Assembly (NCBI GenBank): GCA_026932145.1 | Contig: JAIXKT010000012.1 | Coordinates: forward strand, 11,900-65,112 | Source of the DNA: Bacteroidia bacterium | GTDB lineage: Bacteria > Bacteroidota > Bacteroidia > J057 > JAIXKT01 | Direction of reading: 5' to 3' | DNA length: 53,213 bases | Shown: positions 9,270 through 53,213 of the stretch, piece by piece | Layout: the number at the start of each line of letters is the position of its first letter | How positions within the stretch are numbered: position 1 is the first letter of the stretch | Position numbers and translations under genes: made by a program | The notes under the pieces: model-generated | Database searches by the model: none | What the model saw: the letters and a program-made list of their open reading frames with translations, nothing else | Told to the model about the DNA's origin: nothing

Positions 9270-12200
9270 TTAGCGAATGGTGAAGCGAACTTGCACCCCA
9301 AATGCTGAAAATGTAGTGGGAAAGGAATTTGACATAACCGGTTTATTCCGGTTAAATTCATAATAAACCCGAACTGTCAGTTGTGTACTAACCATATAAT
9401 CTATTGATGGCTTGATAATTAGCCCAAAATTACCGCCTGTGAAATCCGGCGGAGCAGTAGAGTCTAAGCGGCGGTTTTGATTCTTGGAATTACGAAGGGT
9501 TACTTCAAAACGAGTAGTTATGGCGTTTTTAATCTCAAATTCTTTTCCGAATAAATTTATCGGAAACAGAAATTTGTCCTTTCGCCAACTTAAATTCAAG
9601 GTGAGTTCTGTATTTTTGGTTTCAGCCAATTGTAAAGCACCTACGTTAAAAGTTAGATTTCTGTCTTTTTTTAAATCTACCGTAGCTCCGATTCCGTTTT
9701 TCATGGTAAGATTAACCCCCAAAATTGGGGCAAACTGTTCTGAAATTGTTACCGTTTGAATATTATAAATCGGCTCAAAATTAACCAATTGCACAGTTGA
9801 ACCGGTAATAGACCTTCCGGCAGAGTCCACTACATAAGTTTGTTGGGAAAATTTATCTCCTAAATTGGCTCTCGAACGTAAGTTATAGATAAAGTTTGTA
9901 GAATAAGTGGAGCGATAGCTATGTGTAAACGTAATTGCACTAAAAACATCCTTAAATGATTCCGAGAGGTTTAGGCCATTAAAGGTAACTGTCCAATTAG
10001 GCATCGGGATTCCAGAAAACGGTGATAATGAAACACTTCCTGCCTTTTTACCGCCGTAAGCCGCCAAAAAGGCAGGAATTAGCACATCTTGGGAGGTAGC
10101 ATTGTAGCCATTAAAATATCCGCGATTAGTTTCTCCGGTATAAGATAGCAATGGCTGGTTAGGATTAGCAAGTGCCAAACGCCGTGAAATCTCCCGTCTA
10201 TTTTCTGCAAATGCCAAAAAAGCTTTGGATTCATTATTGGTGTTGCTTTCCCAAGCAGTCCCAATAGCTAAAAAAGAACTTGAAAAAGTACCTGTTGCTA
10301 CTTGGTTAAAGCTATTAAAGTCTTGTTTTGCGTTATCCCAAGCAAAGAGTTCGCTATAATTTTTTGAGTTAGAGCGATTTACATTAAAATCTATTTTAAA
10401 CCCTTTGAACACATTCATAGAGAGCCGTCCGGTTATTTGTTCATTGAAAGTGGTTGTATATTTGCTGGTTAGGAGGGTATCTCGCGTTATCCAGCCTGCT
10501 TCTGCGGCTTTTCGGCGAATGTCTTTTTGGTCGCCTAAGATAAAACCAATTCCCGGAGCCATTGTAAAGGGTCGGTTGAGACCCAACGAATCTCGAAAGC
10601 GGAAGTCTAAGCCAAAGTTATCCGTTTGGGGCAAATAACCCGGCAGAATAGTGGTTTCTGTTCGGTTATAGGATAAATCTGCTGATTGGACGCTAAAAAT
10701 CAGCCGGACAACTTCTTTGGCGAACCCGCGCAATGCGATGTAGGTGTCGTCCCCCTCTTTTCTACTTGAGTCTGCTTTGCTGATAATATTTTTTTTAGGG
10801 GTAGGCTTGAGAAATGCTTCAACTTTTTTGAACTTTTTGTAAAACTGTGCAAAATTCATTTGCCCGGTAGCTTGTATGCCACGGGAGTTGCTAATAGTAT
10901 TTCCAAAGTTTTGGTTCTGCAATGCGGCTGTTTGCCACGTAAATGCCGCATTATAGGTAACGTTAGAGGAAATCCAGTTTAGTGGTTTTACTTTATCAAA
11001 AGGCAAACGATAAGTTGCCTGAATGGTTTGATTGTAGTTTAAGGTTCTCCCAAAATTGATTTGCCGGTACTTCCCATTAGCCTCATCTCGGCCAAAACTC
11101 AATATATTTCGGTACAGAGTATCTTTCTTTTCGGGAGAATTTATCAGTCCACGTGGTTCATCCACACGGCCGGTATTGGTAGCATTAAAGGTGAAGCCCA
11201 GAGATTTTGTAATATCCCAGCGGAGGCTATAAGTTCTATTTAAGGTAAAATTTTGTACAAAAGTAGGTGTGATAATAATGCCGTTAGCCGTTGGTCGCAT
11301 CTGATTTTGCTCAAACATCCGGTTGCCATCTAATTTAACCGAAATTGTTTTGGGAAAGAGGTAGAAGTTAAAAGCTGTAATTAGATTGGTTTTTGCTTTT
11401 TTACCTTTAAATGGCTGATAGTTTTTGGGTGTAAAGCTGTAGTTATAGGCTATGGAAGCGAGGTGTTGGGTATTTAGCCGATAAGCTGTTGTGGAATTAT
11501 GAGAAAATATTTCGCTGTAGCTTAGTGTTAGTGCTAAGTTTTCTACGTCCCAGAGGTGAGGTTTTGCCTTAGAGTTTGTTTTTATTTTTCGGGCGTTATT
11601 TAGGGAGAAGCTGCGGTTAGAGGTGTAGTCTTGGGCGGCGCGGCGCGTAGAATCTCTGTCATGTTCATCACGGGCAGCTTCAAGGCGGGTAACCATCTTA
11701 ATATCAGGGTCTAAGGGGTTATATTGGGGGTCAGTCCAACGTTCGCCAACGGCATAATAGATAGGCAGTTCAAGTCCTATTTTTTTGGGGAGAAGTTTTC
11801 CTAAGTTAGAAGACACCGTCAGGTCATAGCGGGTCATATTTTCGCGGCTTCGTTCGTTCAGTCTTTTTTCGATGCCGCCAAATCCCGGTGTACTTCTGGC
11901 AGCCGCGACAGTTACCTGCGCTAAGTCCGCTAATTTCAGGTTTAGTCGAGCATTTGCAGCCCAGCCGGGAAACTCATCAAAGTCCGTAACCCGCAATTCA
12001 TTGATCCATGCTTCTAAACAAACCGGTAGGCCGTCATTCTTGGGATTTCGGATACCTATCAAAATCGTTTTAACGTTATTTAGCTGGGGGTTTCCCAGCA
12101 CCGTTATTTTATGTCCTTTTTCATTCACATAGACATAACGTTCGTTATATGAAAGCATTCGGATATTACGTTCTTGCTTCGCCCTATTTAATTCTTCCAG

Positions 12201-15200
12201 TGCAAAATTTAGCTGATTTTCTTCTAACCAAATATTTTCTGCAGTGTTAATACTTAAATTTGAGGGAGTTAGAGGAATTTCATATTCGTAATAGTTATTC
12301 ACATAATCTGTTCCTAAGCGGATAAAGCAGGTTACATCGCCTCGTTTGTTAAAGTTAGCGGGATAATTTCCATTCAAGTTAGGTTCTGCGTGTATCCACA
12401 TTTTGAGGTGTTTATAATTACGCAAGTCAAAGTTGATATTTTTGAAAACTGCGTTTGCATAGCCATCTTGGAGGCCGCAAACGCTCATTACCAACGATTG
12501 TTCGTTTTGAAGGATGCCGGGAACCGGAGAGTTATACTGTTGCTGGCGGATAATATTTGGCGGGATAACATAACCCAGCGGCACTCTACCGGAGTTTTCT
12601 TCAATATTAACCGTAGCGATATTAAAGTCAGCGGAAACGGAATCTGTAGGGGGAAACACTACATCTTCCGGGCCAATGGTGTTGGTATAACGCCGCCACT
12701 GGGTAGCTACCAACTGAACTTTAGCAAACCGCATGATAGTTTCTTTATCAAAGTTATTTAGATATAGCCGGATAAAGTCTATAGCTTTAAAGTTCTGGAT
12801 TCCATTTATCGGGATGCCGGAACGTAATGGCACTCTAAACTGATACCATTTAACCCGTTTATCTGTATTATTTTCCATCTTTAAGATGGTATCTACCTGA
12901 CTTACAATATAGTTTCTGCCGACCACCAAATCTTCTTTTCGGATACTGATTTCGTAATCATAAAATTGCTCTGCCGAACTTAACGTTCCGTCTGCGTTTA
13001 GGTCTTCTACATCCGGTGTAGTTGTAGCCGAGCGGGTAAATTTATCACCCGGGTTAGCTATGGGTGAGTTTCCTTCTGTGCCGTTGTAGTGTACATAGCG
13101 GGAAATAATATCTGTGCCGGAGGGGTAAGCTGCATCATCTCTAAAAAACACAAAGTCATCAGAGCTTGGGTCATTGTTGATTTTAGCGATACCCACAGCA
13201 TCCGTAACCACAGTTGAGGCTTTGTTTAGATAGTCCTGAAAAAATGTTCTTTCTTTTTCTGAAGAAAGCCCGTCTAAGCCAACGTCCTGAAACTTTCGTG
13301 CACTTGGGTTGTTATCAAAAGATTGGATAGGTAAAGTAGCATCTGAAACGCGCCCCCAAGGAGTTGTCGTTAAGTTTAAATTATTATTATCATCATTTTC
13401 ATTGGTTGGGAGGCCATTTTCAAAGCTCCGGCGGTTATCTGGCAGCACGTCTTCGCTGATTTTTCCCAGATTAAGGTGCATATTTCCACCGGTATTTGAG
13501 GAGTCTTCGGCAAAGGGGTCTAAGAGCCAAAATTCAATAAATTCAAAGTTTGCGGCTTCAAAGTCGGTGTTACCACTGGTTCTGCGCATGATACCAGCCC
13601 AGTTTTCACGAGGATTTATGAAACTGCCTTTTGAATTAATTTTTCCGCCGTCTGTTTGGTAGTTATATGGCCCCCGAACACTTGGAAAATAGTGCAGGTC
13701 TAATGTAGCCAATAAGTTAGTGCCCGGTCCTGGTGTAGATTTGGGGAAAACTTCCTGCGGCGTTATTCGGCGGCTTGCATTTAGGTTCAAGGCAGGTGAG
13801 TTTTTGTCTAAACCAAAATCTTTAGGCTGAGTATAAAAGATAGCATCTATTTGATACCAAGCTAATTTAGAACGGGTAAATCCGGCTGAAGTAGGGTCTG
13901 AGCCGGCCGGCCTTGGTAAATTTGACGGAAAAGAGGCTAACTTCCATAAATTAGCATTGGTAATATCTGAAACATTTTTAGTACCTTCAAAATCATCTAA
14001 GTAGGCAATTCCCTTTTCGTCCCCTGTTTGAATTTGGCGCGGGTGGCCAGGAATCATTTGGGCAAACTCTCCGTTAAATGTAACCTGAGAAGGCTCTTTT
14101 GTGTTTATCAACGGAAGTTTATCTATTATTTTGGTAATGAGCTTAGATTGTTTATTAAAACTTACATCTGCACCCCAGATTGTATTAGAAAGCGGCTCAT
14201 CTCCGATGTTAATCTTGTTGATTAAGGGGCGTTCATTTAGGTGCAATATTGTTGCCCCTAACTTAATGTCTTTGTTAAATTTATAGTCAATTCGGGAGCC
14301 AACCATTGTTTTTTGGTCAATCCCAAATAATGTATTACTTTCATATTTGACTTTTATTTCTTGGCCGGAGTTGATAATTCCTTGATTCAGGATGGTAACT
14401 TTTCCGATATTGTAATCTACGATATAGTCAGATCCTTCTGTTAATTGGATTCCGTTGGCAGTAACTTTGATGGAGCCTTGTGCTATCTGAACGGCATTTA
14501 GCTGGATTTCCGAGCTGGATGCGCCTTGATACGTTCCTTTCATTTTAAAGCGGTTTAGCTGTGGAAAGAACTGGCTTGCATCCACTTGGGTCATGCTGTA
14601 TAATTGTGGATAGGCATATTTAGCCGAATCTGATTCTCTGTTGGTGATAAACTTGTCTATCAAGCCCTTACCAAAAGGCTCTAACTTCGGGAAGATAATT
14701 AACCCTTTTTCGGTAATAACGGTAAGGTTGGGTAAAAAGTCAAAACGGTTATCAGCACCGGCCTCCATATTGTTGGTTAGCCGGTCTAAGCTAAGTACTT
14801 GTATGAGCGGAATGTTTTTGACATCTGAAGTAGGTAAGTAATTTATATCGCCGGCTCCTCCGGTAGATTCGTACCAAACATCTAATACAAAATTATCTTT
14901 ATTTAAGTTGTAGCCTCCGATGCTATAAATATTTTTCATCATCAAATCCCAAGTCGGATACGGTCTGTTGTTAAGAGCCGGGCGGGTAGAAGACGGTTTT
15001 AGCATTTTTAGAAATAATACATTGGTATTATTGGCGTTAGAAGGTTGGTCTATGGAAAACTCCCCTACTCTGAACACAGTAGTATCTCCGGTAACGGTGT
15101 ATTCATAAGCTACATACAGAACGTCATTTTGCTGAAGTTTTGTGTTTAAGGATATGTAGCCAAGTTGTGGGTGGAAGCGATATTCTTGTTCATTAAGGCG

Positions 15201-16523
15201 CTTCATATTTTCGATAAGTTCAAAGTCTTCTCCATTTTTCAGGCCGGAGGCTTCTAAGTTAGCTACTGCATCATTCCGTAAGCGGGCATTTTGAATCGTT
15301 TGATAAATATGGTTAGCGGAGTTATTTGGGTATAGTTTGGTGGGGTTAGCTACTGTTGGGTTCCAAAGAACGCCGCCGTTGGACGTTATATTTTCCCCCA
15401 AATCTACAAAACCTATGGCATTACGGTTGTTTGTTAGAGAAGAGTTTGAGCGGTTTGTAACCCAAACTTCTACTCGGGTTACGTTAATATTTGAGGTAAG
15501 TACGGGAAAATTAGCAGTGGCTCGTTCATAAACGCTTCGGAAATAATGATTTAGGAAAAAGTGGCGGTTTTCGTCATATTCATTTACTTTTTTGGAAAAT
15601 TCTGTTTTTTGGGCACCGCCGGTAGCTGTTACCTCATTGGTTTTTCCGCGTTGCTGAGAGGCAATGCTAGTGATAAATACCGGGCCAAATTGAGCCGCTA
15701 CTTTTACCCCAAAAAGATTTTGCCCTCCGGTAATCAACGACCCGTTTAGCGGTAGGCTCACATTACCGGCTTCTATTTTTTTGATAATGTCATCTTCGCC
15801 GCCCTCATAACCGGTTAAAAAAGTATTCTCAAAATTAAAGTTAGACTTAGTATCCCAATTTGCCCGTAGTTTTAGCTTTTCGCCGATTTGCCCTACTACA
15901 TTTAGCTGAATTTGTTGGTCAAAATTAAAGGTAGAGTTTCGTTGATTTGCCAATGAGTTTGCCGGATTTTGATTTTTATTTATCCGATAGGATAAATCTA
16001 AGAGAACAGATCCGCTGGGTTTTATATCTACTTTTCCGCTGCCGAATATATCCCGAAATAATGCCGAGTTAATATTCAGCTTTGGTATCAATGACTTAGA
16101 AACGGGCGAACCGCTTTGTTGTGCACTTTTTAGCCGGAAGTAGCTGGTGGTCTGCTTCCGTTTGAGCATATCTAAATATTCCTCGCGGGTGATATACGAG
16201 GGTGGCTTTACGTCTATCCCGCCTACGCGCTCATGTACATAATATCCTTTCCCGTCTTCATCTATTTCATAGATAGTTTCTACATTAGAAGGGTTGGGAG
16301 CATATAGAGGCGACTCATGATCTGTGTTGGTTGGGTTTATAGAATTATCTTTCCGCCTAAAAGTTATTCTTTTACGCTTTTCGTTGCTATCTGGGAGAAA
16401 AAAACGATATTCCCTCCGCTGATTGTTGTTTTTTTCTAATATAACTAACTTCTTGTTGGTTTCTTCTTGATGAAACCACGGTGTTAGAATAGAAAAAATA
16501 AAAAGAATTACTGCGTGTAGCAA
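9270..16523 (-). CDS. sprA: T9SS outer-membrane translocon SprA (Sov)
   Basis: SprA is the giant single-chain beta-barrel through which T9SS cargo crosses the outer membrane. It is also needed for gliding in motile relatives. At 2417 residues the length is typical. A short hydrophobic N-terminus (HAVILFIFSILTPWF) fits a signal peptide. The N-terminal part has the SprA landmarks GSVLLDLSYRINKNQNP and LRANWDTKSNFNFENTF. Further on come KSRPALNNRPYP-like strands and many alternating aromatic strands, ending in the barrel-like AFGVQVRFTIR. The start is taken as TTG (16521-16523) because an in-frame TAA lies two codons upstream and no ATG occurs in the first 170 or so codons that would keep the signal. 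Cargo of this system is encoded at 48690-50201. Confidence 0.95.
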   Translation of the reverse strand: MLHAVILFIFSILTPWFHQEETNKKLVILEKNNNQRREYRFFLPDSNEKRKRITFRRKDNSINPTNTDHESPLYAPNPSNVETIYEIDEDGKGYYVHERVGGIDVKPPSYITREEYLDMLKRKQTTSYFRLKSAQQSGSPVSKSLIPKLNINSALFRDIFGSGKVDIKPSGSVLLDLSYRINKNQNPANSLANQRNSTFNFDQQIQLNVVGQIGEKLKLRANWDTKSNFNFENTFLTGYEGGEDDIIKKIEAGNVSLPLNGSLITGGQNLFGVKVAAQFGPVFITSIASQQRGKTNEVTATGGAQKTEFSKKVNEYDENRHFFLNHYFRSVYERATANFPVLTSNINVTRVEVWVTNRSNSSLTNNRNAIGFVDLGENITSNGGVLWNPTVANPTKLYPNNSANHIYQTIQNARLRNDAVANLEASGLKNGEDFELIENMKRLNEQEYRFHPQLGYISLNTKLQQNDVLYVAYEYTVTGDTTVFRVGEFSIDQPSNANNTNVLFLKMLKPSSTRPALNNRPYPTWDLMMKNIYSIGGYNLNKDNFVLDVWYESTGGAGDINYLPTSDVKNIPLIQVLSLDRLTNNMEAGADNRFDFLPNLTVITEKGLIIFPKLEPFGKGLIDKFITNRESDSAKYAYPQLYSMTQVDASQFFPQLNRFKMKGTYQGASSSEIQLNAVQIAQGSIKVTANGIQLTEGSDYIVDYNIGKVTILNQGIINSGQEIKVKYESNTLFGIDQKTMVGSRIDYKFNKDIKLGATILHLNERPLINKINIGDEPLSNTIWGADVSFNKQSKLITKIIDKLPLINTKEPSQVTFNGEFAQMIPGHPRQIQTGDEKGIAYLDDFEGTKNVSDITNANLWKLASFPSNLPRPAGSDPTSAGFTRSKLAWYQIDAIFYTQPKDFGLDKNSPALNLNASRRITPQEVFPKSTPGPGTNLLATLDLHYFPSVRGPYNYQTDGGKINSKGSFINPRENWAGIMRRTSGNTDFEAANFEFIEFWLLDPFAEDSSNTGGNMHLNLGKISEDVLPDNRRSFENGLPTNENDDNNNLNLTTTPWGRVSDATLPIQSFDNNPSARKFQDVGLDGLSSEKERTFFQDYLNKASTVVTDAVGIAKINNDPSSDDFVFFRDDAAYPSGTDIISRYVHYNGTEGNSPIANPGDKFTRSATTTPDVEDLNADGTLSSAEQFYDYEISIRKEDLVVGRNYIVSQVDTILKMENNTDKRVKWYQFRVPLRSGIPINGIQNFKAIDFIRLYLNNFDKETIMRFAKVQLVATQWRRYTNTIGPEDVVFPPTDSVSADFNIATVNIEENSGRVPLGYVIPPNIIRQQQYNSPVPGILQNEQSLVMSVCGLQDGYANAVFKNINFDLRNYKHLKMWIHAEPNLNGNYPANFNKRGDVTCFIRLGTDYVNNYYEYEIPLTPSNLSINTAENIWLEENQLNFALEELNRAKQERNIRMLSYNERYVYVNEKGHKITVLGNPQLNNVKTILIGIRNPKNDGLPVCLEAWINELRVTDFDEFPGWAANARLNLKLADLAQVTVAAARSTPGFGGIEKRLNERSRENMTRYDLTVSSNLGKLLPKKIGLELPIYYAVGERWTDPQYNPLDPDIKMVTRLEAARDEHDRDSTRRAAQDYTSNRSFSLNNARKIKTNSKAKPHLWDVENLALTLSYSEIFSHNSTTAYRLNTQHLASIAYNYSFTPKNYQPFKGKKAKTNLITAFNFYLFPKTISVKLDGNRMFEQNQMRPTANGIIITPTFVQNFTLNRTYSLRWDITKSLGFTFNATNTGRVDEPRGLINSPEKKDTLYRNILSFGRDEANGKYRQINFGRTLNYNQTIQATYRLPFDKVKPLNWISSNVTYNAAFTWQTAALQNQNFGNTISNSRGIQATGQMNFAQFYKKFKKVEAFLKPTPKKNIISKADSSRKEGDDTYIALRGFAKEVVRLIFSVQSADLSYNRTETTILPGYLPQTDNFGLDFRFRDSLGLNRPFTMAPGIGFILGDQKDIRRKAAEAGWITRDTLLTSKYTTTFNEQITGRLSMNVFKGFKIDFNVNRSNSKNYSELFAWDNAKQDFNSFNQVATGTFSSSFLAIGTAWESNTNNESKAFLAFAENRREISRRLALANPNQPLLSYTGETNRGYFNGYNATSQDVLIPAFLAAYGGKKAGSVSLSPFSGIPMPNWTVTFNGLNLSESFKDVFSAITFTHSYRSTYSTNFIYNLRSRANLGDKFSQQTYVVDSAGRSITGSTVQLVNFEPIYNIQTVTISEQFAPILGVNLTMKNGIGATVDLKKDRNLTFNVGALQLAETKNTELTLNLSWRKDKFLFPINLFGKEFEIKNAITTRFEVTLRNSKNQNRRLDSTAPPDFTGGNFGLIIKPSIDYMVSTQLTVRVYYEFNRNKPVMSNSFPTTFSAFGVQVRFTIR

Positions 16524-45796: not shown

Positions 45797-45934
45797 AAAA
45801 AATACAATTTATTAAAGTATATAATCATTTAATTCAAAGTTAGTTACATACAAAAAGTGTAATTATCTTTTTTATGTAACTCATTCACAACTGCTGGTTG
45901 TAAACCCAAATTTTCCGTAGTTATAAAAAGCGAA

Positions 45935-45955
45935 GGGGGCAGATAATCTGCCCCC
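45935..45955 (-). terminator. GC-rich terminator of the secreted-protein cluster
   Basis: GGGGGCAGA / TCTGCCCCC with a three-base loop. On the minus strand it is followed by TTCGCTTTTTATAA, giving a short U tract. It lies 30 bases past the stop of the last cluster gene. The outer AGCG/CGCT bases can extend the stem. Confidence 0.85.
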
Positions 45956-45969
45956 CGCTATACATTACA

Positions 45970-45986: not shown

Positions 45987-48659
45987 TTACGGATTTGGGA
46001 AAGATGCGTAGTACAGATTCAATGAATTTGTATCTACTAAGTTAAAGTCTGTTGCACTAACATTGCCGTCCAAGTTTAAATCTGCATTATTGTAAACATT
46101 GGCTGCGTTTGTATCATTTTCAACTGAAACTATGTAGAAGTCGGATGCATTGCATTCGCCTCTATCAAAGCCGGCCATATTTGGGTAGGCATTACCTGCT
46201 GCCATACGAATTCTGCTGTTGTCTCGCATCATTGTATTTACGATGTCGTTACCCTCATAAACACTGGCAGGCGCAGTCAAATCCAATGCAGCCGGAATAG
46301 TCCTATCATAAGCATTTCCAGCATCAAAAGACTGAATCGAGATGTGATTGCGGTGTCTTATTACCACACGGTAGTTTCCATCAGGAGCTGCGCAGAATTG
46401 AGCATAACCGGTAGTTCCCGTAGCAAAATCCTTAATATCTCCATTGCTCATCAACCAAGCATAAGATTTATCCACAGGGTTATCGCTACCATCTCTAAGT
46501 TCTATTTCGATAATATCTACTACGTTGGCGGGTATTGGTGTAAAGCCTAAGGCAGTATCCATAACCGCAGTCGTTGGAATAAATCCGGTTGGGTCGCCTA
46601 CCGTAGCAGTATCGCAGAATGCAGCATTCATAGTGGCTCTAACTGCTACATTAGCATATAAGTTTGTAAACATCGTATCTCCCACCAAATCGTAAGGCCC
46701 ATCTAAGTATGTTTTAACAACTACTTTTAACGAAGGGTTAACGGTAACAACAACTGTGTCTATGGGGCCGTCGCAAGATCCATTGGTGCGAGCGACTACA
46801 AAACTATCATTAGCAGATGTAACTCCATCAGTATAAATTCCGGTATTAAATACCTGTGTAGATGTGGCCTTTAGCGCCCCAAGCATATCATACCAATTTG
46901 CGGCATAATCAGCAACTAAGGTGAAAGAACCGGCTCCACAGCGGCTTTGGTCAGCAACCGTAACAGCACCGGGTACCGGCTTAACTGTGATGGTGGTAGT
47001 ATCGGTTAGTGTATCACCGCAAGCAGGGAAGTCTGTATTGTAAACAAAAACCTTAATTTCATACGTAGAGTCAACGGTTCCTGTGTTCAACGTACCTGCT
47101 GGAATAGTAATATTCAGTGTTGCACCATTTCCAACAGCAGGTAATCCTATCTGGAATGGAATACCTTCATCTTGGCGGTAAGCATACGCTACGTAAGTCA
47201 TCTGAGCGTCTGTTGGGGTGTCTATTATAACGTTGAATGCCTGTGTAGCGCAAATGGTAGTATCTGGATCATCCGTAGAAACAATTAAAGTATTATCCGG
47301 AATTGGCATAATAACAAGCGTTTTCTCAACAAAGCATCCACCTTGGGTTGTAGTGTCAGTTACGGCACGAATAGTAATTGTAGTAGGTACTGAAACAGTT
47401 GGTAGTGTATAAGAAGTAGAATTACCTGTAGCGATATTAACGGAGTTGGTTATATCCCAGAAAGTTACCGAAACTGTGCTATCTTCTGTAAGAGCGGCTG
47501 AGGTACCAGAACAAAATGTATCCGGAGCAGCAATACTAAACGTTGGTACATAGTTTAAATTGATTGTAATAGAGGTGTCGCAACCTGCCGCAGTAACCAA
47601 TTGTATCTTTCTGCTTTCTTTTGCACCTCCATTAGCTCCATTTACACGAGATAAATTGATTGAAAAATTATTGCTGGCGGCTTGTAGCTGTACATTACCA
47701 TTATCTACGTCAAACCAATCTCCGGCAACATTACTTGTGAAGTTAATAAGAGAGCCATCACAGAAGTCATCTCCGTTAGCAGGCAATGTGATAATAGGCT
47801 TGGGATTAACTACAACCAGAACGGAATCAAAACAGCCTGATAAATCCGGGTCATCATTGTAAGCATAGACTGTATAATTTCCTGCGGTTGTAAATCTATA
47901 GCCGGCAGTGCTTATATATGAACCACCATCAATGTTTGTTATATCAACTTTCCAACGAGAGTCAATATCTGAAACAAAAGTGATAGAATCTCCCTCGCAG
48001 ATAGTATCATTAGGGGTTACGCTCGTGATAGTTGGCTTATAAACCAAAGATTGTGCAGGGGATATATAGCTGAAATTACTGGATAGAACTACTATAGGCA
48101 GGCCATAGTGTGCCTTTGTAATAGAGCCTTTCGGGGCGGCGTCAGTAGGCCTACGAATATCAATTATACTAGCGTCAATAGGGCCACCGGGACAAGTTTT
48201 TAAATCGAAGGAAATTGTTCCTACCAAAGTCCTAGTTGGACCTATTGGCACCCAATTGCCCACAGCCGCTATAGATGTTAGGGCTTTTACTTGAAGGTTA
48301 ATTATAGCGCCTTCAGCATGAGGAGACTTGCCTAAGCCCATAGCTAAATAACCTCCTGGATTTGAGGCTGCATCGTATGGCCCTCGTACATCAATCGTAC
48401 CAGAGTGAAAATTTATAATAGATGTATCCTTGATTGTAAATACGAAGTTAGCGTTTCCAAGACTATCTCCGTTTGGAGCCCCTGCTATATCTTCTACAAA
48501 AACATCTACAAAGACTTTCCCTGGGAAAGTAACATCCTTGCGTAGATCTACCGAATACTCGTATCCGATCTGGGCAAACGCAGTTGTACCTACTGCCCAT
48601 AGTACCATAAGCAGTACTATATGTGAGCATAATTTTCTGATTCTCATAATGTAAATCAT
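45987..48659 (-). CDS. Large secreted Ig-like repeat protein with a dockerin-like C-terminal module
   Basis: 890 residues. The signal peptide ends TTAFAQ (an internal ATG at 48647 is an alternative start). The N-terminal 190-residue beta module resembles that of the next protein upstream. Several PKD/Ig-like repeats follow: ITSVTPNDTICEGDSITF, CDTSITINLNYVPTFSI, PGAVTVADQSRCGAGSF. The last 240 residues contain SYAWLMSNGDIKDF, YRVVIRHRNHISIQS, ECNASDFYIV, and a calcium-loop-like DLNLDGNVSATDF. It is probably exported to the surface. It lacks a type A T9SS tail, so its route is unclear. It is the last gene of a four-gene unit. Confidence 0.82.
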   Translation of the reverse strand: MIYIMRIRKLCSHIVLLMVLWAVGTTAFAQIGYEYSVDLRKDVTFPGKVFVDVFVEDIAGAPNGDSLGNANFVFTIKDTSIINFHSGTIDVRGPYDAASNPGGYLAMGLGKSPHAEGAIINLQVKALTSIAAVGNWVPIGPTRTLVGTISFDLKTCPGGPIDASIIDIRRPTDAAPKGSITKAHYGLPIVVLSSNFSYISPAQSLVYKPTITSVTPNDTICEGDSITFVSDIDSRWKVDITNIDGGSYISTAGYRFTTAGNYTVYAYNDDPDLSGCFDSVLVVVNPKPIITLPANGDDFCDGSLINFTSNVAGDWFDVDNGNVQLQAASNNFSINLSRVNGANGGAKESRKIQLVTAAGCDTSITINLNYVPTFSIAAPDTFCSGTSAALTEDSTVSVTFWDITNSVNIATGNSTSYTLPTVSVPTTITIRAVTDTTTQGGCFVEKTLVIMPIPDNTLIVSTDDPDTTICATQAFNVIIDTPTDAQMTYVAYAYRQDEGIPFQIGLPAVGNGATLNITIPAGTLNTGTVDSTYEIKVFVYNTDFPACGDTLTDTTTITVKPVPGAVTVADQSRCGAGSFTLVADYAANWYDMLGALKATSTQVFNTGIYTDGVTSANDSFVVARTNGSCDGPIDTVVVTVNPSLKVVVKTYLDGPYDLVGDTMFTNLYANVAVRATMNAAFCDTATVGDPTGFIPTTAVMDTALGFTPIPANVVDIIEIELRDGSDNPVDKSYAWLMSNGDIKDFATGTTGYAQFCAAPDGNYRVVIRHRNHISIQSFDAGNAYDRTIPAALDLTAPASVYEGNDIVNTMMRDNSRIRMAAGNAYPNMAGFDRGECNASDFYIVSVENDTNAANVYNNADLNLDGNVSATDFNLVDTNSLNLYYASFPNP

Positions 48660-48689
48660 TTGGTTAAAGTGGTTTAAAAAAAGTATTAG

Positions 48690-50201
48690 TTATTTTCGTG
48701 TAAAAATAATTGGAAAAATTTGTTCTGTATCATATATTTTTAGTTTAAGCCAAAAAGTACCTACTGTGAGTTGTATCTTTTCTGCATCAATTCGGAATTG
48801 GTGTTTCCCAGCGGTGTAATAATCTTGCGCTATTTCTCTAACAAGTTGCCCAACAGGATTATAAAGTAAGATGGTAATAAACTGAGGGGACGTAAGTTCT
48901 ATGTACAAAGACGTTTGATCAAAAAATGGGTTGGGGTATATGTAAGCAGTAAATGGGAGTACATTTTGGATATTTGTAGGTAAATAAGTGATTGTGTTGG
49001 AGGTATCTGTGTCGCAATTATTTCCGGTAATCACGAAATAATCTCCTGGAAGTGTAGGTGTTAAAGTATCTTGATTAGCTCCGTTAATTAGTGTACCGTT
49101 AAAGTACCATTGTACGTTGCTACTTTCGGTAGTTTGCAGTTGATTTTGTGGGTTTAAAAAGAGGGTTGGGTCTGGGCTATCTCCTTGCAAAATGATATTT
49201 TGGATACTAATAGCAGCGCAATGAGAGTCAGATACAGTAAGAGACAAACTAGCATTTGGCAGTGTATCCCAATCTATTGTAACGATTTGGGTATTATTGG
49301 CTCCTACAATAGTTCCTCCGGAAACTACCCAGTTATAATCTAAGGCAGACACATTGGCTTGATACTGTGCAAGTTGATTTTGACAGGCTGTAAAGTTTCC
49401 TGTAAAAGAGCTATCTAAATTACAAATTTGCATTGGTATTAAGGTTAGTGAGTCGCTAAAATCGGATTCGCAGGAATAGTAGGTTGCTTTTGCGGTATAG
49501 GATCCGGCTTGGGTTGCGAGGAGTGTATCGCTATGCTGATTGGGTATCAAAGTTCCGTCGAGATACCAATTGCAAATTCCGTGATAGCTTGATATAAGGG
49601 TTACGCTACCGCCGGGTGGAATCTGCATTTGATTGGCTGTCAAGATAGGAATATTGGGAATACTACACAACGGGAAGTTGGGTGCTGGGTTTATGAAAGA
49701 TCCTTGGCTTTTAATATTTTGATTTGCAAAATTATAGACCCCCATTGGATTAAGCCTCCAAGAAACGGTATTAAATCCTGCTGGGTTAGTTATCGGAATT
49801 TTGAGCCTTCCTATGCGCGTGGAAGTTGTCGTTACCGGTTGTCCGGGTCCTGGGCCTCCAGTGTTTGATAAAACAGTTAAGTTTACATATCCATTTACAG
49901 CATTTGAGCCAAAGCTCATCAGATTATAGTTAGCTCCATCCGTCAATGCGTCCCAAGGACCTTTGGTTGTTTGATCTAATGAAACTGCCGCAACATCTAA
50001 ATTACTCGCTGTAACAAAGATAGAGAAATTGGACATTCCTAAATATAACGGGCCGGGTCCCGTTAGTGTAATGTAAAAATCTATCCACAACTCGCTTTGG
50101 TTAACTTTCTGCTCTACCGTTACTTGATATTGTTGCTGGGCATAAGAGTATATACTCGTAAAGCAAAGAACAAAAAGATATACAAATAGGAGTCGTTTCA
50201 T
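48690..50201 (-). CDS. Secreted protein with type A T9SS sorting domain
   Basis: 503 residues. The signal peptide ends IYSYAQ. The N-terminal module (about 20-170) shares LGMSNFSIF and TKGPWDALTDG patterns with the 890-residue protein. Two Ig-like segments follow (around 190-330), each with an NWYLDG or QWYFNG core, and a SLTVSDSHC strand. The C-terminal 85 residues are a classic T9SS type A domain: AYIYPNPFFDQTSLYIEL, ITILLYNPVGQLVREI, and a final FPIIFTRK. The sorting tail directs it through SprA and onto the surface. No enzymatic motif seen; an adhesive or matrix role is likely. Confidence 0.88.
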   Translation of the reverse strand: MKRLLFVYLFVLCFTSIYSYAQQQYQVTVEQKVNQSELWIDFYITLTGPGPLYLGMSNFSIFVTASNLDVAAVSLDQTTKGPWDALTDGANYNLMSFGSNAVNGYVNLTVLSNTGGPGPGQPVTTTSTRIGRLKIPITNPAGFNTVSWRLNPMGVYNFANQNIKSQGSFINPAPNFPLCSIPNIPILTANQMQIPPGGSVTLISSYHGICNWYLDGTLIPNQHSDTLLATQAGSYTAKATYYSCESDFSDSLTLIPMQICNLDSSFTGNFTACQNQLAQYQANVSALDYNWVVSGGTIVGANNTQIVTIDWDTLPNASLSLTVSDSHCAAISIQNIILQGDSPDPTLFLNPQNQLQTTESSNVQWYFNGTLINGANQDTLTPTLPGDYFVITGNNCDTDTSNTITYLPTNIQNVLPFTAYIYPNPFFDQTSLYIELTSPQFITILLYNPVGQLVREIAQDYYTAGKHQFRIDAEKIQLTVGTFWLKLKIYDTEQIFPIIFTRK

Positions 50202-50209
50202 TATTTGAA

Positions 50210-50923
50210 TTACTTATTCTCGGCAGTTGTGTATCGTAATGATAATGAGTGGTTTTCTACTATCCTTGCATCCTCTTCATTAACTATACCATCTAAGTTA
50301 AGGTCTTCTTTTATGAGTATTTCCGGTCTCTTCTCTGATATAGCAGCAAAAACGATAAACATATCCGCAGCATTAACTTCAGCATATAATTCATTGGGAG
50401 TATCATATACATTTCCTGCTATCATCATGGATAGTCCTTTGGGGTGCTTTATGTAAGAGTTTGGTTTAGCTATAGTTGGATTTGTAAGGTCTAAAATTGT
50501 TTGCCTTTGAATGGTAATTGGCTTGGCAGATGTAATCGGCAAATGATTGCGGTGCTTTACAATAATGTTGTAAGTTCCTTCGGGAGCTTCTAAGTAAACT
50601 TGGTTTCCGGCAAGATTGGTTACTTGGCCATTTTTAAGTAACCAGCCGGATAATGTATGCTGAACGGTATTGGTTTGGGGGTTTAAGAGTAAAACCGTGA
50701 TCATATCTACTGTTCCTGCGGGAGCTGGTATTCCGTAGCTACGCAACTGAACCTCCGGTAGGGTTTGCATTAAATCATCATTTTTCAAAGTATTTTGTGC
50801 AGGTCCTTCTAATACTACACGCAAATGCAATTCTTGCGCTATCAAAGGTATCTGAAACATCATTATCGACAAAAATACTATGCTTTTAAAGTAGCGCATT
50901 GCGTTTAAAGGGTTCTTTTTCAT
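50210..50923 (-). CDS. Short secreted protein made of the HRNH/dockerin-like module
   Basis: 237 residues. The hydrophobic signal ends PLIAQ; ATG codons at 50923 and 50899 are both possible starts. The mature part is almost only the C-terminal module of its neighbours: LHLRVVLEG, a DMITVLLLNP strand, GWLLKNGQVTNLAG, YNIIVKHRNHLPITS, LDLTNPTIA, MMIAGNVYD, EVNAADMFIV, and the calcium-loop-like DLNLDGIVNEEDARIV. It shows that the module can stand alone as a protein. Eight bases precede the next gene and six follow the previous one. Confidence 0.8.
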   Translation of the reverse strand: MKKNPLNAMRYFKSIVFLSIMMFQIPLIAQELHLRVVLEGPAQNTLKNDDLMQTLPEVQLRSYGIPAPAGTVDMITVLLLNPQTNTVQHTLSGWLLKNGQVTNLAGNQVYLEAPEGTYNIIVKHRNHLPITSAKPITIQRQTILDLTNPTIAKPNSYIKHPKGLSMMIAGNVYDTPNELYAEVNAADMFIVFAAISEKRPEILIKEDLNLDGIVNEEDARIVENHSLSLRYTTAENK

Positions 50924-50929
50924 ATCATT

Positions 50930-52639
50930 TTAATAAGGGACTACTGAATAGTATAAAAACTGGGAGTTCATATCCACAATAATCATATCAGCCGCATTCA
51001 CAACTCCATCTAAATTAAGGTCTTCCGGGTAATAAACACTTTCTGGGTTTAAGTCATTCATTATAGATGCTACAAAGTAGTCTGAAGCATTAATTTCATG
51101 AGCACCGTCATCCTCATAGGCATTGCCGGCTATCATTCCCACTTCTGATCCTGTTACATACGTAGTTCCCCATGTACCCATATAGACATTAGTTGGGTTA
51201 GTTAAATCAACCGTAATAGGATTTGAATAGTCTGATAACTTGGCTGTTGCAGACATAATAGGTAGGTGATTTCGGTGTTCTACAACAATATAATAATTGC
51301 CGGGGCCTTTATTGCGAAAACGAATATAGGGAGAAAGTCCTGTTTCAAAATCTCTAATTTCTCCATTAGATAGAAGCCAAGCATACGCAGAATCTACCGT
51401 TGTGTTGTAGGCTGTTCCGGTACGTAAATAAATATGTACCACATCAACAGCTCCTGCTGGAGAGTTATATGGATTTAACATTTTAGGATACCCTGAAATC
51501 ACACTTGCGCTTCCATAAAGGCTGTCTAAATGATATTGATAGGTAACAAAGTCTCCAAAATCATACGGATTTAGCTTTGTCCACATATTTCCACTTCCTC
51601 CGTCGAAAGCACCCTCTAAGTAAACTTTAATTTTTGTTTTAACAAAATCCCGCTCTCCAAAGCAATAAAAACCACTAAGTTTAGTTTGGTCAATGATAGT
51701 ATCAGTAGTAATACTATGATAGCTTATATCAGTGGTATCTAAGTTAGACACTCCCAGAGATTTAAAAAGTCCGTTATAACTTGGGGAATGTGCTATGCTA
51801 AGGAAATCATTTTGAGAAACATCTTCATCATCATCGTCATAGGTGAATGTGATTTTAGGATTAATCATCGTTAAACCTACTGGATTGATAAACGCAGATT
51901 TCCAATAGCGGTGCTCTGTAAGTGTAAAAAGAGATACCATAGCGGAATCTGGGGTGCCGGTAATTGGGTTAGCAACATTTGTGGAGGTAGAAAAGCGATA
52001 GTAACCTTTTGTGCCGGTTAAGCCTGAAACTGAAACCGGTGCATACTGCCCTTCATCACCAATAGGAAAAAAGAGTTCTCTATTTAAGGCAACTTCTACG
52101 GGACCACTTATGTAACTAAACATATTCCCTTCTGTTTTAGTAGAAGTTTGGGATAAACGAAGTGTATCGGTATCTTCGGTTTTTAAAACTCCTGCCCAAA
52201 AATGAATACTATCTCGAACAGTCCAGTTTCCTATCATATTTATTCGCGCAGGTTCTAAGGTCTTTAGGGATAACACATCTAAGGTATCTGTTTTGCTACT
52301 CGATGCCACAAAATCCCTTGGATGGGTTACAGATGTTAATTCTACTACTGAGCCGGGTGGCGAGATTATACTACCGGATGCTCCATAATAGTCCATTGAA
52401 AGAATAAGGGAATCTTTATTTATTAAAATTCCGTCATTTTGTAGCGGGGGTTCAAGATAGCTTTGGCCTTCATTCAACACATAGCCGTCCGATTTATTAT
52501 TGATAGAATTGATAGAATTATAGCCAACGAAGAAGTCTGTGCCGGGAGAAATATACAGCGTATCGCTAACCGACATCTGAGCAAGTAACCGTGTGCTTGT
52601 AAATAGGCCGCAAAACAAAAATAGTAAACCGTTTTTCAT
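50930..52639 (-). CDS. Secreted beta-rich protein with the HRNH/dockerin-like module
   Basis: About 569 residues from the ATG at 52637-52639. The frame extends to 52705, but the signal peptide (GLLFLFCGLFTSTRLLAQ) starts at the inner ATG. The N-terminal half has adhesin-like patterns in which a stretch reads SGPVEVALNRELFFPIGDEG and then YAPVSVSGLTG. The C-terminal 240 residues share the module: KIKVYLEGAFDGG, YAWLLSNGEIRDF, YYIVVEHRNHLPIMS, DLTNPTNVYMG, GMIAGNAYED, EINASDYFV, and DLNLDGVVNAADMIIV. First gene of the four-gene unit. Catalytic residues not recognised. Confidence 0.82.
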   Translation of the reverse strand: MKNGLLFLFCGLFTSTRLLAQMSVSDTLYISPGTDFFVGYNSINSINNKSDGYVLNEGQSYLEPPLQNDGILINKDSLILSMDYYGASGSIISPPGSVVELTSVTHPRDFVASSSKTDTLDVLSLKTLEPARINMIGNWTVRDSIHFWAGVLKTEDTDTLRLSQTSTKTEGNMFSYISGPVEVALNRELFFPIGDEGQYAPVSVSGLTGTKGYYRFSTSTNVANPITGTPDSAMVSLFTLTEHRYWKSAFINPVGLTMINPKITFTYDDDDEDVSQNDFLSIAHSPSYNGLFKSLGVSNLDTTDISYHSITTDTIIDQTKLSGFYCFGERDFVKTKIKVYLEGAFDGGSGNMWTKLNPYDFGDFVTYQYHLDSLYGSASVISGYPKMLNPYNSPAGAVDVVHIYLRTGTAYNTTVDSAYAWLLSNGEIRDFETGLSPYIRFRNKGPGNYYIVVEHRNHLPIMSATAKLSDYSNPITVDLTNPTNVYMGTWGTTYVTGSEVGMIAGNAYEDDGAHEINASDYFVASIMNDLNPESVYYPEDLNLDGVVNAADMIIVDMNSQFLYYSVVPY

Positions 52640-52907: not shown

Positions 52908-53213
52908 TTAATTAGACCAAAATGTATCTATATTCATATATTTGAATGTGCATATAGACATTACCATTTGAGGGCTTAGGTTCTTTATTGCTTGGTCAAA
53001 GAATGTGCTGATTTGTTCTAAATTTTCGAAATGTTTATTGGTAAACTTTCTTTTGATATGTTGCCATATCTTTTCAGCAGGGTTTAACTCTGGGCTGTAA
53101 GGAGGTAGAAATAATAGGAAGATATTTTTTGGAATGATTAGTTTTTTTGCCTTGTGGAATGCACCATTATCCAAAACCATTATTTTGTATTCTTCAGGCT
53201 CTTGCAATGAAAA
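52908..53213 (-). mobile_element. IS630-family element, 3' part, cut by the window edge
   Basis: The minus strand enters from the right edge with the C-terminal catalytic part of an IS630-type DDE transposase. About 100 residues are seen: YKIMVLDNGAFHKAKKL with the second catalytic Asp, then LLFLPPYSPELNPAEKIW with the final Glu, and an end at FWSN. The true start lies beyond the edge. This is a different IS630 subgroup from the element at the left edge, whose DDE part would not have this YSPELNPAE layout. Its outer end lies below 52908 in AT-rich sequence and cannot be located. Confidence 0.85.

Follow-up and report, generated by a model that had tools for sequence, protein, structure and literature searches.

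Cohesin–dockerin pairs are classical, and monovalent adaptor scaffoldins such as ScaC of Ruminococcus flavefaciens carry a cohesin at one end and a dockerin at the other. In Candidatus Stygibacter (Cloacimonadota), a T9SS-linked cellulosome-like complex has been proposed (PMC8542988). A 2018 study found no cohesins or dockerins, consistent with other Bacteroidetes genomes (PMC5831590), and dockerin hits have been listed for some Bacteroidota (PMC10266427). No description of a Bacteroidota T9SS cohesin–X-module-dockerin (XDoc) system was found in the literature searched. The four-gene operon described here probably encodes such a system, in which type II-like cohesins and XDoc modules would form a T9SS-based surface assembly that is not a cellulosome.

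The window (the whole stretch of DNA that was analysed, 53,213 nucleotides) contains four minus-strand genes, D, C, B and A, at the positions given by the sequence-only reading (Table 1), with intergenic gaps of 6, 8 and 30 bp along D-C-B-A. The operon encodes two XDoc proteins (D and C), a cohesin protein bearing a probable T9SS tail (B) and a putative adaptor combining cohesin and XDoc (A), and all four proteins have N-termini that, read by eye, resemble signal peptides. Gene D starts with ATG at 52639, and a longer frame with a TTG start extends to 52705. A scan for sigma-70 promoters found no more of them than in shuffled sequences; a terminator-like hairpin lies 3′ of A and probably marks the end of the operon. 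The outer-membrane channel of the T9SS, SprA, is encoded in the same window (9270-16523, minus strand) by a 2417-aa frame that scored 2308 bits to TIGR04189 and matched Pfam SprA_N. A transposase frame of the 'LPPYSPELNPAEKIW' type, IS630-like by eye and with a run of N inside that stems from the assembly, is located upstream of D and has the same orientation (window 52908-53213 and L006 4808-5926, minus strand).

Table 1. Features of the D-C-B-A operon (window positions)
Feature	Position	Strand	Description
Gene D	50930..52639	-	Beta-rich region of ~330 residues between a signal peptide and a C-terminal XDoc; lacks a T9SS tail (NCBIfam gave no T9SS family)
XDoc of D	50942..51631	-	HMM i-E 4e-65; canonical Ca loop 2 at 50987-51022
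Gene C	50210..50923	-	Signal peptide and lone XDoc module
XDoc of C (copy modelled)	50225..50842	-	Predicted structure, pLDDT 88.7; canonical Ca loop 2 at 50270-50305
Gene B	48690..50201	-	N-terminal cohesin behind a signal peptide, followed by an Ig-like region and a probable T9SS type A tail
Cohesin domain of B	49692..50129	-	Predicted structure, pLDDT 87.8; Foldseek, VIA
T9SS type A sorting domain of B	48735..48941	-	Pfam PF18962 E 0.002, residues 421-489; TIGR04183 E 3.5e-4; both below curated cut-off
Gene A	45987..48659	-	Cohesin-homologous domain behind a signal peptide, then Ig-like repeats and a C-terminal XDoc; lacks a T9SS tail
Cohesin-homologous domain of A	48063..48557	-	blastp to B E 3e-6; iterated HMM; homology only
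XDoc of A	46002..46718	-	HMM i-E 1e-55; canonical Ca loop 2 at 46047-46082
Intrinsic terminator-like hairpin	45934..45956	-	10-pair stem, directly after gene A

The sequence-only reading had proposed that A, C and D have a C-terminal module in common, and this stands: 44 columns of their alignment are invariant, HRNH, N-A-x-D and DLNLDG among them. When C was used as query against the whole genome, D (E 5e-22) and A (E 2e-18) were retrieved, with all else no better than E 0.06, so that the likeness of the three modules is far beyond chance; these three are the only clear XDoc copies in the genome. The second calcium loop, read earlier as intact, has the canonical pattern D-L-N-L-D-G-x-V-x-x-x-D in all three copies, and the first is altered, as had also been proposed, the canonical acidic pattern being absent from each copy, with an insertion and lost acids. 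Two canonical loops are present in 24 of the 93 XDoc family members.

According to an AlphaFold2 model built from 93 sequences, the module of C is an X-module-dockerin fold. Comparison of this model with the PDB (Foldseek, VIA-align 2) gave eight top entries (3kcp, 4wi0, 4fl4, 5g5d, 4u3s, 2b59, 5m0y and 5k39), all of them X-module-dockerin chains of cellulosomal scaffoldins, with Z 10.6-11.8, the next entry scoring 5.7. The best VIA match was 3kcp_A (Z 11.8, 144 aligned, rmsd 3.0), and 4wi0_B was matched by Foldseek at E 7.5e-7. Two helices are present in the predicted structure, in which DLNLDG is placed within the dockerin fold, ahead of a helix, and the HRNH motif forms part of the X-module. 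Pfam and NCBIfam gave only weak Dockerin_1 matches on the operon proteins (E 0.0015 and 0.019), and the XDoc family profile matched PDB dockerins by sequence (best 2b59_B, E 3.7e-5) rather than scattered beta-sandwiches. The fold and profile matches together bear out the earlier dockerin assignment and make it more exact, the module consisting of an X-module plus a dockerin. In the folded XDoc, loop 2 at the least would be expected to hold calcium, and binding of XDoc to cohesin would probably be calcium-dependent.

A and B are also related to each other at their N-termini, where blastp shows homology across 148 aa (E 3e-6), a point absent from the sequence-only reading. The N-terminus of B is a cohesin jelly-roll beta-sandwich as modelled by AlphaFold2 from 16 sequences: the best 48 PDB entries were all cohesins, the match to 4uyq_A (VIA) had Z 12.7 and rmsd 2.8 with 136 aligned of its 143 residues, and the best Foldseek E was 4.1e-6. 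Homology to B suggests that the N-terminus of A is likewise a cohesin. Pfam cohesin PF00963 did not match A or B, and profile A4 retrieved no cohesin from the PDB sequences; both of these searches are blind to the A/B domain, and it was the fold that revealed the cohesin. Identity of the B domain to solved cohesins is 5-17%, and the PF00963 miss is a detection limit of that model and not a defining property of the cohesin fold. Across the whole genome PF00963 gave one sub-threshold match (G000:C7:461367-461633, L161; 18.4 bits, cut-off 24.1), within a 1755-aa frame. The two-sequence profile A3 of the A/B domain identified four genes in the genome: A and B themselves and two more, coding for proteins of 628 aa (contig C37) and 2250 aa (contig C7). 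Neither of the latter genes (L137:7033-8919 and L138:7592-14344) has an XDoc gene beside it; one of the two proteins carries fn3 domains and a type A tail, the other a PKD domain and a type B (CHU_C) tail.

T9SS tails were distributed unevenly between the two kinds of protein. The tail assigned earlier to B was recovered as type A, its TIGR04183 score of 20.5 bits falling slightly below the curated cut-off of 23, and no T9SS tail family in NCBIfam matched A, C or D. Sixteen of the 17 cohesin proteins scanned possessed such tails (15 TIGR04183, type A; one TIGR04131, type B), the lone tail-less one (L054) stopping near the end of the available stretch. Among 45 XDoc proteins at most one had a T9SS tail, and there was none among the families listed with at least two members. 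No enzyme or CBM family was found in A-D with Pfam or NCBIfam. Membership of a cellulosome was rejected, as these four proteins include no enzymes or CBMs and XDoc modules number only three genome-wide.

The tandem arrangement noted from the sequence is conserved in relatives. A3 matched in only four of the 12 relatives searched (G002, G006, G008 and G010), and six of the eight matches adjoin module genes. Gene order is kept in relatives of two other families: as C-B-A in G002, where A is split over two contigs with a common end sequence, as C-B at a contig end in G008, and as D′-B′-A′ plus one further cohesin protein in G006 and G010. The profile did not detect a cohesin on A′ in the last two genomes. 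Individual genes have homologues as follows: B has a full-length homologue, B′, in another family (E 1e-47), likewise with a T9SS tail, C has a homologue in L008 (34% identity, E 1e-32) and D has a homologue, D′, in L011, the match being significant over the XDoc only.

Over 295 genomes of the class, cohesin was detected in 24, XDoc in 48 and both in 23 (Fisher p 7e-20, uncorrected for kinship between genomes that are not independent, and biased in that the A4 profile was built partly from loci chosen for carrying XDoc). A cohesin gene lay 0-1000 bp downstream of an XDoc gene on the same strand for 19 of the 45 cohesin hits, in eight families. Hits in families f50 and f27 are weak and partial. 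Cohesin and XDoc are also combined in one protein, as in A, in L054 (411 aa), L162 (two proteins) and L163, and three cohesins occur in one protein of L054 and in one of L165. Of 119 XDoc modules, 94 form the very end of their protein. Tandem arrays of ~1000-aa Saprospiraceae proteins with XDoc mid-protein, followed by ~500 residues, were observed in L013, L016, L018 and L019, and a Saprospiraceae MAG (L060:7837-11518) contains four tandem, nearly stand-alone XDoc genes (284-298 aa) that are C-like. XDoc was furthermore present in MAGs labelled Ignavibacteria, Cloacimonadota, Marinimicrobia, Calditrichaeota and Auribacterota.

XDoc occurred without a detected cohesin in 25 genomes. Genes 3′ of XDoc that lacked a profile-detected cohesin were compared by hhalign, and a flavobacterial-type group (seven genes) appeared related (E 3.6e-6, 87%); an ignavibacterial-type group was linked only via the flavobacterial-type group (E 2.6e-5, 75%; 1.6% against A4 directly). 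The L039 gene (97%) and one L040 gene (91%) also look related, four further genes (L030, L031, L061 and L070) gave no match, and seven unrelated genes were all <0.4%. This profile comparison suggests that more divergent cohesins exist, a result to be taken as a lead, since the groups were chosen by eye.

The surface assembly system envisaged in the sequence-only reading has gained its missing half, the predicted cohesins of A and B, and we infer the surface location. It is difficult to account for the near-complete co-occurrence, and for an adjacent gene order that is fixed across eight families, unless cohesin and XDoc pair; binding, its calcium dependence and location at the surface would follow from the families to which the domains belong. 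All four proteins would enter the periplasm via Sec, and B would then be sorted to the outside by its T9SS tail, its N-terminal cohesin serving as docking site and thereby as a surface receptor. The XDoc modules of D, C and A would plug into cohesins. With a cohesin and an XDoc at its two ends, A would act as an adaptor that joins itself or B and lengthens a daisy-chain, C might be a cap or plug and D could be the terminal cargo. Because the XDoc proteins have signal peptides and no T9SS tail, and their cohesin partners are tailed, it is conceivable, if rather unlikely, that XDoc proteins dock on the cohesin carrier already in the periplasm and leave through SprA as a folded complex, forming a daisy-chain filament via A afterwards. 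They may instead be captured only after export.

Other readings of the same data were weighed against a cohesin–XDoc assembly. XDoc might be mainly an export or surface-sorting signal, analogous to a T9SS tail, with no binding to cohesin. It mostly forms the very C-terminus of secreted proteins without a T9SS tail, a position typical of sorting tails, and its hosts are T9SS-bearing phyla; yet its predicted fold is that of an X-module-dockerin with calcium loops, cohesin genes follow directly downstream across families and, in some lineages, XDoc is internal with hundreds of residues C-terminal to it, all of which makes such a role improbable. We give still less credence to the idea that adhesins have kept the folds only to space their parts or to self-associate, neighbouring cohesin and XDoc not being partners, since the co-occurrence and gene order across eight families speak against it even if the low identity to solved cohesins and the two lone cohesin genes away from XDoc genes are in keeping with it. 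That the operon is part or a remnant of a cellulosome-like complex that degrades polysaccharides or proteins and has its enzymes elsewhere is barely credible: XDoc proteins of other genomes do include subtilases, leucine-rich repeat proteins, an alpha-amylase, a family 8 polysaccharide lyase, amidases and proteins with lectin-like domains, but the three XDoc modules of this genome are confined to the operon and none is on a recognised enzyme.

With the cohesin–XDoc assembly as the preferred reading, these findings point to the occurrence of a type II-like system in several families of Bacteroidota, its XDoc half extending to neighbouring phyla, and suggest that it has been overlooked so far because the sequences fall below curated models. 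Such a system would give the widespread 'HRNH' C-terminal module a testable function and could explain the surface retention of many secreted proteins without T9SS tails. It may also provide new coupling pairs for protein engineering, and it raises the question of piggyback export via the T9SS.

Compared with the monovalent adaptor scaffoldins, A has the same end-to-end layout, with Ig-like repeats between the two ends, and we know of no enzyme partners for it. A close parallel is the type II cohesin–X-dockerin pair found in clostridial scaffoldins (CipA/SdbA of Clostridium thermocellum; ScaA/ScaB of Acetivibrio): both predicted folds are alike, the X-module is fused ahead of the dockerin in both systems and the pair described here would likewise join non-catalytic proteins. 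In contrast to the clostridial pair, from which it differs at about 15% identity, the operon is without a cellulosome, enzymes or CBMs, possesses the HRNH motif and an atypical first calcium loop, and has a probable T9SS tail where the clostridial proteins have SLH or sortase anchoring. It shares with Candidatus Stygibacter dockerin proteins and a cohesin scaffoldin or protein with a T9SS-type C-terminal domain; that system, however, is built of enzymes, and standard models pick up its giant, CBM-bearing scaffoldin with multiple cohesins (PMC8542988), whereas here there are four smaller non-enzymatic proteins whose cohesins are undetected by Pfam. The pairs themselves are known; what appears to be new, judged by the literature searched, is a non-enzymatic, operon-sized cohesin–XDoc version in Bacteroidota that is invisible to the standard cohesin model.
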